From Streptomyces sp. (GTDB taxonomy: Bacteria > Actinomycetota > Actinomycetes > Streptomycetales > Streptomycetaceae): 64,000 bases of DNA. Position 1 is the stretch's first letter; each line of letters begins with the position of its first letter. Shown piece by piece: positions 27,064 to 37,302 of this stretch. The translations under genes were made by a program, and so were the position numbers. Where the stretch lies: assembly GCF_019510245.1 (NCBI RefSeq), contig NZ_JAEKKT010000134.1:62001-126000 (forward strand), given 5' to 3'. Below the pieces are notes generated by a model. That model was given only the letters and a program-made list of their open reading frames with translations. It was not told where the DNA came from and ran no database searches.

Positions 27064-28128
27064 GGTCGAGCCATGACCGACAGCGGCACCGACGCGACCC
27101 GCCGGGCGCGGCCGGATCCCGGGCACCAGAACCTGCTGTACGGTCTGCAGCCGGACGTGGCGGGAGCGGCCGGGTACCCGGACAGCCCGCCGCGTATGGG
27201 CTTCTTCACCGACACCACCGTGTGCATCGGCTGCAAGGCGTGCGAGGTGGCCTGCAAGGAGTGGAACGCGGTCCCGGAGGACGGCCTGGAACTGACCGGC
27301 ATGTCCTACGACAACACCCAGGGGCTCGGCGCCGACACCTGGCGCCATGTCGCCTTCATCGAGCAGCGCAAACCGCTGGGCGTCCAGGAACCGGGGGTCT
27401 CGCACGAGGATGTGGACGTGTTCGCCGCCGCCCGGACCCTCGGCGCCTCCCCCGCCTCGCCCGGGCCGGGCGCCACGGCACCGGCCGCCGACACCGCACC
27501 GGCGGGTGCGCCGGCCGGGGAGATCTCCCCGGTCCGACCCGACGGACGCACCGAACTGCGCTGGTTGATGGCCTCGGACGTGTGCAAGCACTGCACCCAC
27601 GCTGCCTGCCTTGACGTGTGCCCCACCGGATCGCTGTTCCGCACCGAGTTCGGCACGGTCGTCGTCCAGGAGGACATCTGCAACGGCTGCGGCTACTGCG
27701 TGCCCGCCTGCCCCTACGGCGTGATCGACCAGCGCAAGGACGACGGCCGGGTCTGGAAGTGCACGCTCTGCTACGACCGCCTCGGCACCGGTATGGAACC
27801 GGCCTGCGCCAAGGCCTGCCCCACCGACTCCATCCAGTTCGGCCCGCTGGACGAGCTGCGCGAGCGGGCGGCCGGCCGGGTGGCCCGACTGCACGCGGCC
27901 GGTGTACCCGACGCCCGGCTGTACGGCGAGGACCCCGGCGACGGGGTGGGCGGCGACGGCGCGTTCTTCCTGCTGCTGGACGAGCCGGAGGTGTACGGCC
28001 TGCCCCCGGACCCGGTCGTCACCACCCGGGACCTCCCGGACATGTGGCGGCACGCGGCGCTGGCGGCGGCCTCGCTCGCCGCGCTCGCCGTGACCAGTTT
28101 CGTGGGCGCCGGCCGAAGGAGGCGGTGA
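27064..28128 (+). CDS. formate dehydrogenase iron-sulfur (beta) subunit, 4Fe-4S ferredoxin-type
   Basis: CIGCKACEVACKEWN, CKHCTHAACLDVCPTGSLFRTEFGTVVVQEDICNGCGYCVPACPYGVI. Confidence 0.93.
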   Translation, partial: GRAMTDSGTDATRRARPDPGHQNLLYGLQPDVAGAAGYPDSPPRMGFFTDTTVCIGCKACEVACKEWNAVPEDGLELTGMSYDNTQGLGADTWRHVAFIEQRKPLGVQEPGVSHEDVDVFAAARTLGASPASPGPGATAPAADTAPAGAPAGEISPVRPDGRTELRWLMASDVCKHCTHAACLDVCPTGSLFRTEFGTVVVQEDICNGCGYCVPACPYGVIDQRKDDGRVWKCTLCYDRLGTGMEPACAKACPTDSIQFGPLDELRERAAGRVARLHAAGVPDARLYGEDPGDGVGGDGAFFLLLDEPEVYGLPPDPVVTTRDLPDMWRHAALAAASLAALAVTSFVGAGRRRR

Positions 28129-29171
28129 TGAGCGGTTCCGATGTGTCACGTGAAGGCGTCCGAGGCACCAGGCCCGGGCGGGACGCGCCGACCGGTAAGC
28201 ACGGCAGGCGCCGCCGGGACCGGGGCGAGCGGAGCATGGTGCCCGACGCCGAGTTCTCCTCGTACTACGGCAGGCCGATCCTCAACAAGCCCACCTGGAA
28301 GCCGCTCGACATCGCCGGCTACCTCTACCTGGGCGGGCTCGCGGGCGGCTCCTCGCTGCTGGCCGCCGGGGCGCAGTTCACCGGCCGCCCGGCGCTGGCC
28401 CGGGCCGCGAAGCTGGGCGCGACCGGCGCCATCTCCCTTTCGCTGGCGGCGCTCGTCCACGACCTGGGCCGCCCGGGCCGCTTCCTGAACATGCTGCGCG
28501 TCCTCAAGCCGACCTCTCCGATGAGCGTGGGCTCGTGGCTGCTGGCCGGATACGCCCCGCTGACCATGGCGGCGGCGGCCACCGACGTGGCCGGGCGCCA
28601 CCGGCTCGTCGGTACGGCCGCCACCGCGTCGGCCGCCGTCCTCGGCCCCGCGGTCGTCACCTACACCGCTGTGCTGATCTCGGACACCGCCGTGCCGTCC
28701 TGGCACGAGGGGTACCGCGAGCTGCCGTTCGTCTTCGCCGGGTCCGGCGCCACCGCGGCGGCCGGGCTGGCGCTGCTGGCCACCCCGCCGGCCCAGACCG
28801 TCCCCGCGCGGCGGCTGGCGGCCCTCGGCGCCGCCCTCGAGCTGGGCGCCTTCCGGCTCATGAAGCATCGGATGGGCGGCCTGCTGTCCGAGCCCTACGG
28901 ACAGGGCCGGGCACACACCCTGCTGCGCACCTCGGAACTCCTCACGGCGGGCGGCGCGGCCGTGGCGGCCCTCGGCGGCCTCGACACCCGACGGCCCGCC
29001 CGGGTGCTCGCGGCGGTGGCGGGCGCGGCCCTGCTGACCGGCTCGGCGGCGCTGCGGTTCGGCGTCTTCCACGCCGGGGTCGCCTCTGCCGAGGACCCGA
29101 AGTACACGGTCGTTCCGCAACGGGAGCGGCTGGACGCGAGGAAAGGAGACGGGACGGCGACCCGGCCGTGA
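28128..29171 (+). CDS. NrfD/PsrC-type polysulfide reductase/formate dehydrogenase membrane subunit
   Basis: PTWKPLDIAGYLYLGGLAGGSSLLAAGAQFTGRPALARAAKLGATGAISLSLAALVHDLGRPGRFLNMLRVLKPTSPMSVGSWLL; ATGA-type overlap with upstream gene. Confidence 0.9.
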   Translation: MSGSDVSREGVRGTRPGRDAPTGKHGRRRRDRGERSMVPDAEFSSYYGRPILNKPTWKPLDIAGYLYLGGLAGGSSLLAAGAQFTGRPALARAAKLGATGAISLSLAALVHDLGRPGRFLNMLRVLKPTSPMSVGSWLLAGYAPLTMAAAATDVAGRHRLVGTAATASAAVLGPAVVTYTAVLISDTAVPSWHEGYRELPFVFAGSGATAAAGLALLATPPAQTVPARRLAALGAALELGAFRLMKHRMGGLLSEPYGQGRAHTLLRTSELLTAGGAAVAALGGLDTRRPARVLAAVAGAALLTGSAALRFGVFHAGVASAEDPKYTVVPQRERLDARKGDGTATRP

Positions 29172-29379
29172 CGTCGGCGGGCGCAGCGCGGCCGGACACG
29201 GCACCGGTGCGCGGCCCAGCCAGGCGAACGGACAGACAGTGGCCGACGTCGCCGAGCCGGTGCCGGGCGCGGTCGGCGGCAGCGCCGGTTTCGGCCGGTG
29301 CGGCGCGGGTACTCCGGCGCAGCGAGACGAACCGTACGCGGAGGGGAGGCGGCGCCGATGCCCACCCGGAGTCAGGTGC

Positions 29380-35915: not shown

Positions 35916-35925
35916 GTCGCCCGCC

Positions 35926-37302
35926 CTATCCGCCGGCCGCGGCACGCACCGCTTCGGCCAGACGCACGTCGTCCTGCGCGGGAACCGCCCGCAGGTCCAG
36001 CAGACAGCGACCGCCCTCCAGCCGCCCGACGACCGGGATCCGTCCCGTCCGCAGGGCGGCCGCGAACGGCTCCGGCAGGGACAGGGCCGCGCTGGGCAGC
36101 GTCACCCCGGGCGCGCCGCCCCCGCCGACCGTCGCTGCGCTCTCGACGGCCCGCACATCGACACCGTCCGCGCCGAGGGAGGCGGCGAGCCGGTCGACGC
36201 GGGTGCGCAGCGCGGCGGGGTCGGCGGTCAACGCCTCGGCGGTCGGGGTGGGCGGTCCGGTGAGCGTCGCCTCCAGGGCGGCCAGGGTCAGCTTGTCGAC
36301 GCGCAGGGCGCGGGCGAGGGGATGCCGGGCGAGGGTGCGGACCAGGCCGGCCTCGCCGAGCAGCAGCCCGCACTGCGGTCCGCCGAGCAGTTTGTCGCCG
36401 CTGGCCGTCACCAAGGAGGCACCGGCGCGCAGCTGGGTGGCGGCGTCCGGCTCCCCGGGCAGCAGCGGATGAGGCGCCGGCAGACCGGAGCCGATGTCGA
36501 CGACGACCGGCACGCCCAGACCCGCGAGCTGGTCCACCCCCGCGGCACGGGTGAAGCCGGTGATACGGAAGTTGGACGGATGCACCTTCAGCACGAAACC
36601 CGTGTCCGGCCCGATGGCGGCCGCGTAGTCCTCGGCGGTGGTGCGGTTGGTGGTGCCGACCTCGCGCAGCCGGGCCCCCGTGGCGGCCAGCAGGTCGGGC
36701 AGCCGGAAGCCGTCGCCGATCTCCACCATCTCGCCCCGGCTGATCACGATCTCGCGGCCGGCGGCGAGCGCGGTGGCCGCCAGCACCAATGCGGCGGCAC
36801 CGTTGTTGACGACGTGCACGGCCCCGGCGTCGGGCACCCGGTCCTGCAGCGCCCGCAGTGCCGTGCGCCCGCGCCGGGCCCGCACCCCGGTGGCCAGGTC
36901 CAGTTCCACGTCGGTCGGCCCGGCGGCCTCGGCCACCGCGCGCCGGGCCGCCGCCGACAGCGGCGCCCGGCCCAGGTTGGTGTGGAGCAGCACCCCGGTG
37001 GCGTTGATCACGGCGCGCAGTCCGCAGGCGGTGTCCGGCAGCAGGGCCAGCGCCTCGTCGGCCACGGCTTCGGGTTCAGGCGGGATCCGCCCCGTCCGCG
37101 CCCCCTCCTGCGCCCGGCGGACGGCGGCCTTGACGGCGGACGCGCCCAGCCGCGCGGCCGCCTCGGCCAGCCGTGGATCACGCAGCAGCACATCGGTGCG
37201 CGGCACCCGGCGCCGTGCGTCGGTGTCCGGTCCGGCCGGACCGGACACCGACTGCCGGGAACGGTGCGTACGCGTCTGCCGCGCTGTGCCCCTCGCGTCC
37301 AT
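35926..37302 (-). CDS. selA: L-seryl-tRNA(Sec) selenium transferase
   Basis: INATGVLLHTNLGRAPLS, ISRGEMVEIGDGFRLPD, LREVGTTNRT, VHPSNFRITGFT, SGDKLLGGPQCG. Confidence 0.96.
   Translation of the reverse strand: MDARGTARQTRTHRSRQSVSGPAGPDTDARRRVPRTDVLLRDPRLAEAAARLGASAVKAAVRRAQEGARTGRIPPEPEAVADEALALLPDTACGLRAVINATGVLLHTNLGRAPLSAAARRAVAEAAGPTDVELDLATGVRARRGRTALRALQDRVPDAGAVHVVNNGAAALVLAATALAAGREIVISRGEMVEIGDGFRLPDLLAATGARLREVGTTNRTTAEDYAAAIGPDTGFVLKVHPSNFRITGFTRAAGVDQLAGLGVPVVVDIGSGLPAPHPLLPGEPDAATQLRAGASLVTASGDKLLGGPQCGLLLGEAGLVRTLARHPLARALRVDKLTLAALEATLTGPPTPTAEALTADPAALRTRVDRLAASLGADGVDVRAVESAATVGGGGAPGVTLPSAALSLPEPFAAALRTGRIPVVGRLEGGRCLLDLRAVPAQDDVRLAEAVRAAAGG
37219..37252. repeat. 34-bp perfect palindrome in the selA N-terminal coding region
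   Basis: GTCGGTGTCCGGTCCGG/CCGGACCGGACACCGAC. Confidence 0.9.

Follow-up and report, generated by a model that had tools for sequence, protein, structure and literature searches.

An apparently complete selenocysteine island with a single formate dehydrogenase client in Streptomyces, and probable exchange of clients by the actinomycete sel module

Zhang and others (2006) proposed that the transfer of selenocysteine (Sec) decoding takes place where selA, selB and selC cluster with a neighbouring selenoprotein gene, mostly fdhA (PMC1794560); in Proteobacteria, islands of fdhA with selABC (PMC1794560) and of fdoGHI with selABCD (PMC8124441) have been described, and horizontal transfer of the Sec trait among Actinobacteria has been tabulated (PMC5029168). 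Within the genus Streptomyces, the genome of Streptomyces incarnatus NRRL8089 (2015) contains a Sec-type formate dehydrogenase O (FDH-O) with an in-frame UGA, a selenocysteine insertion sequence (SECIS) and an adjoining selABCD cluster (PMC4498112). The locus analysed here lies in a 64,000-nucleotide stretch of a Streptomyces sp. genome (assembly GCF_019510245.1, contig NZ_JAEKKT010000134.1, positions 62,001 to 126,000; termed the window) and occupies approximately 10 kb (27073-37302 of the window) with fdhB, fdhC, fdhA, selD, selC, selB and selA. It is very probably a complete single-client selenocysteine island, in which the decoding of FdhA is combined with a formate dehydrogenase electron path; its history would be a mixture of descent and lateral movement, and other clients would be served by the same genes elsewhere. 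Because the reports on S. incarnatus and on the earlier islands (PMC4498112, PMC1794560) precede it, the island belongs to an already known kind and is not new. The window shares with S. incarnatus the genus, a UGA-containing alpha subunit and the adjacent selA, selB, selC and selD; that cluster was published without a map, and the likeness covers content, not order or flanks (PMC4498112). The proteobacterial islands are similar in that one client, fdhA, adjoins the sel genes and joint transfer has been proposed; in contrast to them, the window possesses an NrfD-type membrane subunit, and selD and selC are located between fdhA and selB.

The original prediction, made from the sequence alone, had placed fdhB, fdhC and a UGA-containing fdhA opposite selD, with selC, selB and selA following, and gene calls and family scores confirm this layout: the three fdh genes of the plus strand run toward selD on the minus strand.

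27073-28128, plus strand: fdhB, iron-sulfur subunit of formate dehydrogenase (partial match to TIGR01582; PF13247 and other Fer4 domains; 16 Cys)
28128-29171, plus strand: fdhC, NrfD-type membrane anchor (PF03916, E 1e-12)
29360-29497, plus strand: remnant of a hemerythrin-type gene (72% identity to residues 222-253 of L086:4543-5574, which matches PF01814)
29670-32930, plus strand: fdhA, catalytic subunit of 1086 residues with Sec189 (NF041513, 2040 bits, UGA taken as Sec)
30234-30236, plus strand: in-frame UGA (Sec codon) of fdhA, context NQARV-U-HSSTVP (from the translation)
30249-30265, plus strand: SECIS-like hairpin GUUCCC-AGUCU-GGGAAC, 12 nt downstream of the UGA (from pairing conservation)
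32931-33950, minus strand: selD, selenophosphate synthetase of the Cys type (TIGR00476, 382.6 bits)
33985-34077, plus strand: selC, tRNA-Sec with anticodon UCA (ARAGORN; RF01852, 77.3 bits)
34020-35915, minus strand: selB, Sec-specific elongation factor (TIGR00475, 243.7 bits)
35926-37302, minus strand: selA, L-seryl-tRNA(Sec) selenium transferase (TIGR00474, 404.5 bits; PF03841)

FdhA matched the NCBI actinobacterial formate dehydrogenase model NF041513 from end to end with 2040.4 bits (cut-off 1400); SelD, SelA and the tRNA-Sec scored above their cut-offs of 125, 268 and 47 bits, respectively, and SelB passed its cut-off of 242 bits by only about one bit. The catalytic motifs of SelA (Lys304 in SGDKLLGG), SelD (C21/C23/K24) and SelB (GHVDHGKS) are present, and selA, selB, selC, selD and fdhA are all apparently intact; a loss of function in selA or selB, which the prediction had named as one of the observations that would overturn it, was not seen. 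As FdhB stays below the equivalog cut-off for the FDH-N beta subunit (180 versus 334.7 bits for TIGR01582) and FdhC matches NrfD-type families only (PF03916), the enzyme is assigned to an NrfD-anchored type; an identity as FDH-N/FDH-O of the E. coli type (FdnGHI) was rejected, with neither an FdnH-type beta nor a cytochrome b gamma subunit present. Inspection of the translation did not reveal a twin-arginine motif at the FdhA N-terminus.

The FdhA frame is continuous only when the UGA at 30234-30236 is read through. This UGA occupies the same codon in 13 distinct orthologous fdhA stretches, and an FdhA with one in-frame TGA was present in 40 of 53 tRNA-Sec-positive Streptomyces versus 0 of 20 tRNA-Sec-negative ones (p 1e-9), which argues that the UGA-containing frame is not a product of chance; one genome lacking tRNA-Sec (G022) has a Cys-type FdhA. 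Each of the 13 distinct orthologous stretches, those of two plasmids included, retains all six pairs of the downstream hairpin, with one double compensatory change. A G-U in the loop is a feature of bacterial SECIS elements, and it is present in the loop of the fdhA hairpin. Weighing against this assignment, the folding energy of the hairpin is no better than that of shuffled sequence (z 0.85); the case for a SECIS element therefore rests on conservation and co-occurrence. The combination diagnostic of a selenoprotein FdhA, a UGA with a bacterial SECIS hairpin downstream, was found on the basis of pair conservation. If the locus were instead a broken remnant, with the UGA as a true stop and fdhA as a pseudogene, the decayed state of the adjoining hemerythrin-type gene and the SelB score barely over its family cut-off would be readily understood; such a reading is hardly credible for an FdhA of 2040 bits from end to end that has its UGA at the same place in 40 genomes and is accompanied by intact selA, selB, selC and selD.

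According to the families of the encoded proteins, FdhA would oxidize formate with Sec189 as molybdenum or tungsten ligand, the iron-sulfur clusters of FdhB would carry the electrons to the NrfD-type membrane subunit FdhC, and the latter probably hands them to the quinone pool. SelD is predicted to produce selenophosphate and SelA to turn Ser-tRNA(Sec) into Sec-tRNA(Sec); family membership and conservation together suggest that SelB would deliver the latter to the UGA at 30234, with the hairpin just downstream as the mark. The actinomycete islands would owe their distribution in part to descent and in part to lateral movement among the Actinomycetota, plasmids included, and would often have been lost; the same selABCD genes occur alongside other clients as well.

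The source genome (G000) is a draft of 11.57 Mb in 556 contigs (91% complete, 7% contaminated). It contains one tRNA-Sec above the Rfam cut-off and one FdhA of the NF041513 family; the predicted self-contained unit, with one Sec enzyme and its whole decoding apparatus, is thus supported by the sole tRNA-Sec and the sole FdhA of this family. The further search for Sec proteins that had been suggested yielded this one Sec-FdhA, and the SGSV-U-TRNS membrane selenoprotein described below was not found in G000, in a search that covered part of the known selenoprotein families. The expectation that maturation is supplied from elsewhere proved right for fdhD, which is located on another contig (G000:C453:115957-116712) and is also present in the other 11 Streptomyces tested.

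Islands on plasmids are direct evidence for the portability of the unit. The conjugative Arthrobacter plasmid pYA7-1a (NZ_CP110115.1; MOBP, MPF_T) bears a complete island with selC, which has a site-specific integrase on one side and a Tn3 transposase on the other. A complete island with selC is likewise present on Tsukamurella plasmid 17 (NZ_LR134459.1). Both have the same protein genes as the window, a tRNA-Sec and the UGA in the same FdhA context (FdhA approximately 61-62% identical to that of the window); they differ from it in the order fdhA-fdhB-nrfD-selD-selC-selA-selB, with selA and selB reversed. A linear plasmid of Streptomyces anthocyanicus carries selB, selA, selD and selC with different neighbours and another client.

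Among 296 Streptomyces genomes, this one included, tRNA-Sec was found in 54, a patchy distribution. The order fdhA-selD-selC of the window recurs in the sel loci of 26 of 52 relatives (read around the tRNA); none of these 52 has the plsC, SPW, DUF5709 or alpha/beta hydrolase genes of the window within 10 kb of its cassette, and a conserved neighbourhood was rejected. Several groups of relatives have 6-kb flanks in common, none of which is shared with the window, and a group of ten loci retains one right flank. In G000, the flank gene of the sister clade is situated on a different contig (C188) with no cassette gene in approximately 39 kb around it; together with the private flanks, this allows a relocation of the island and does not prove a transfer. 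Regarding ubiquity and vertical inheritance at this locus, named beforehand as counter-evidence to a portable cassette, the sel genes are neither ubiquitous nor at a shared locus, and a vertical signal is present in part. At the edges of the island, scans of the window revealed neither integrase or transposase genes nor long terminal repeats; the latter were rejected as candidates, only short chance repeats being found. Transposase fragments (HTH_21, HTH_Tnp_1) are located at 2829-3385 on the minus strand, approximately 24 kb from the island. The G+C content of the island differs little from that of its flanks (74.5% versus 71.8-72.6%).

For the phylogenetic comparison, gyrB was added as species marker because rpoB of the window genome gave no match at the threshold used; the 60-taxon gyrB tree and the tree sample are enriched for sel-positive genomes. 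Pairwise distances of fdhA and selB correlate at 0.93, a value in keeping with genes that move jointly, and the cassette tree and the gyrB+rpoB tree reject each other in approximately unbiased (AU) tests (p < 1e-45), with the clearest conflicts at G093 and G224. Several results weigh against lateral movement: AU tests reject even trees that differ only locally; the distances of fdhA, selD, selB and selA correlate with those of gyrB at 0.57-0.68 (main type; rpoB control 0.86); sel-positive genomes cluster on the gyrB tree, where the trait requires at least 12 state changes versus approximately 20 when shuffled; and flanks are common to one clade of relatives, the last three being signs of vertical descent. 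G000 itself takes the same position in both trees, just outside the same sister clade (supports 73 in the cassette and 71 in the gyrB+rpoB tree). The proposed test of sel trees against the species tree thus gave a divided answer, with trees that are mutually rejected yet distances that correlate with gyrB, and this points to a mixed history in which much was inherited vertically, losses occurred repeatedly and some lateral movement took place.

Two narrower accounts of this copy have to be weighed against such a mixed history. It might be an ancestral Streptomyces locus inherited vertically, the patchiness being due to loss and the private location to genome rearrangement, an account that concerns history only and is compatible with the decoding mechanism. 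The concordant placement of G000, the clustering of the sel-positive labels and the right flank kept across the ten-locus group speak for it, and the rejection of overall congruence with G093 and G224 placed differently, the lack of common flanks in all 52 relatives, the existence of plasmid islands and the enrichment of the tree sample for sel-positive genomes speak against it; on balance, we consider its chances to be about even. If a mobile element had recently inserted the island here, the private flanks and the sister-clade flank gene standing without cassette genes on C188 would be accounted for, and plasmid-borne islands are known; the edges without integrase, transposase or long terminal repeat, the distance to the only transposase fragments and the small difference in G+C make such an insertion unlikely. 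For the portable cassette of the original prediction this means that it is upheld for the island family by plasmid copies, patchiness and conflicting trees, but not for this copy, which has no mobility gene or flanking repeat and the same position in both trees.

That the sel module is not tied to FdhA is indicated by the genomes without Sec-FdhA. A membrane protein of approximately 255 residues with an in-frame UGA at LSGSV-U-TRNSA was found in 11 of 54 sel-positive versus 0 of 242 sel-negative Streptomyces (p 3e-9); ten of the 11 carriers are without Sec-FdhA, and G169 has both. The codon is TGA in 80 of 80 loci of GTDB actinomycete species (L161-L240), whose genera include Streptomyces, Actinomadura, Actinoallomurus, Micromonospora, Stackebrandtia and Actinophytocola; further family loci stand at sel clusters without Sec-FdhA (L047-L050, L052, L053, L055, L095, L096), and for loci without an adjacent tRNA-Sec, all 21 genomes tested have one elsewhere. 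A SECIS-like hairpin (CUCGCC-A-GGU-U-GGCGGG) starts approximately 26 nt past the UGA with 96.5% of pairs kept; its A-U pair is exchanged for G-C in three distinct sequences of the family, and its A is the third base of CCA, a rarely used Pro codon (5 of the 221 codons for Pro in the island of the window). The protein matched no Pfam or NCBIfam model, and nothing similar is listed among 119 prokaryotic selenoprotein families in a 2026 table (PMC13188914); judged against these three sources, it would represent an undescribed selenoprotein family. AlphaFold gave a confident helical model (predicted local distance difference test, pLDDT, 86; predicted template modelling score, pTM, 0.85), with which a fold search of the PDB returned nothing below E 0.2 (CcdA ranked 43rd, E 1.2); a PDB sequence search yielded no match. 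The occurrence of this UGA-containing family in sel-positive genomes without Sec-FdhA suggests that the sel module swaps its clients.

A second membrane branch has the motif [FW]SP-U/C-G. Its UGA-containing FSP-U-G[QE]S form was located at three places:

L324:11949-12755 (S. anthocyanicus plasmid): FSP-U-G[QE]S protein, in-frame UGA
L054:10919-11566: FSP-U-G[QE]S protein, in-frame UGA
L094:6164-6811: FSP-U-G[QE]S protein, in-frame UGA

Members from other Actinomycetota contain either WSP-UGA-G (L248, L250, L251) or WSP-Cys-G (L247, L249). Profile comparison links the SGSV-U-TRNS and [FW]SP-U/C-G branches with 99% probability (E 5e-18), the Sec/Cys position being aligned, and suggests that both belong to one superfamily of putatively redox-active membrane selenoproteins. 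Their neighbours include MauE-like genes and, in part, a weakly matching thioredoxin-like protein; one member shows a weak match to the DsbD transmembrane family (E 4e-4, short of the curated cut-off), and the likeness to CcdA/DsbD is to be taken as a lead, not a membership. Two more sel-positive Streptomyces without Sec-FdhA bear an [FW]SP-U/C-G relative, so that Sec-FdhA and both membrane branches account for 52 of 54 sel-positive genomes. The exceptions are G149, whose sel locus sits on a short contig, and G211 (L051), in which a complete sel cluster with tRNA-Sec is present and no Sec-FdhA, SGSV-U-TRNS protein or other client was seen in the region read. In consequence, we think it quite likely that the actinomycete sel module works as an interchangeable unit for decoding that can change its client, serving Sec-FdhA as well as a so far undescribed superfamily of multi-pass membrane selenoproteins (SGSV-U-TRNS and [F/W]SP-U-GxS) that possibly form a transmembrane selenol/thiol relay with a distant likeness to CcdA/DsbD.

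Within the island, the start of fdhC shares one base with the stop of fdhB, and the selB stop UGA (34020-34022) is positioned opposite the selC anticodon UCA on the other strand (tRNA position 36). In Shewanella and Ferrimonas, selB also overlaps a reversed selC, its frame entering the complement of the tRNA-Sec as in the window (PMC8124441); exact complementarity of the selB stop to the anticodon is seen in the window and in 21 relatives, and that report makes no mention of Actinobacteria or Streptomyces. The hemerythrin-type gene between fdhC and fdhA, degenerate in the window, is intact beside fdhA in L086, and in relatives such as L086 a gene for a COX1-family oxidase also separates fdhC from fdhA; these neighbours would fit a formate oxidation coupled to oxygen or nitric oxide. 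Elsewhere in the window, Rfam matches above cut-off were obtained on the minus strand for a 5' ureB sRNA (19716-20008) and a cyclic di-AMP (c-di-AMP) riboswitch (16493-16674).

The island represents a clear natural, self-contained cassette for code expansion in an aerobic and genetically tractable genus, and its plasmid-borne counterparts illustrate a way in which the decoding of Sec can spread. As its relatives show, FdhA is not in every case the gene that sustains this decoding; if the proposed exchange of clients is true, one more selenoprotein family with a new role, probably in extracytoplasmic redox chemistry, would be added, and the genes that maintain the 21st amino acid would become testable.

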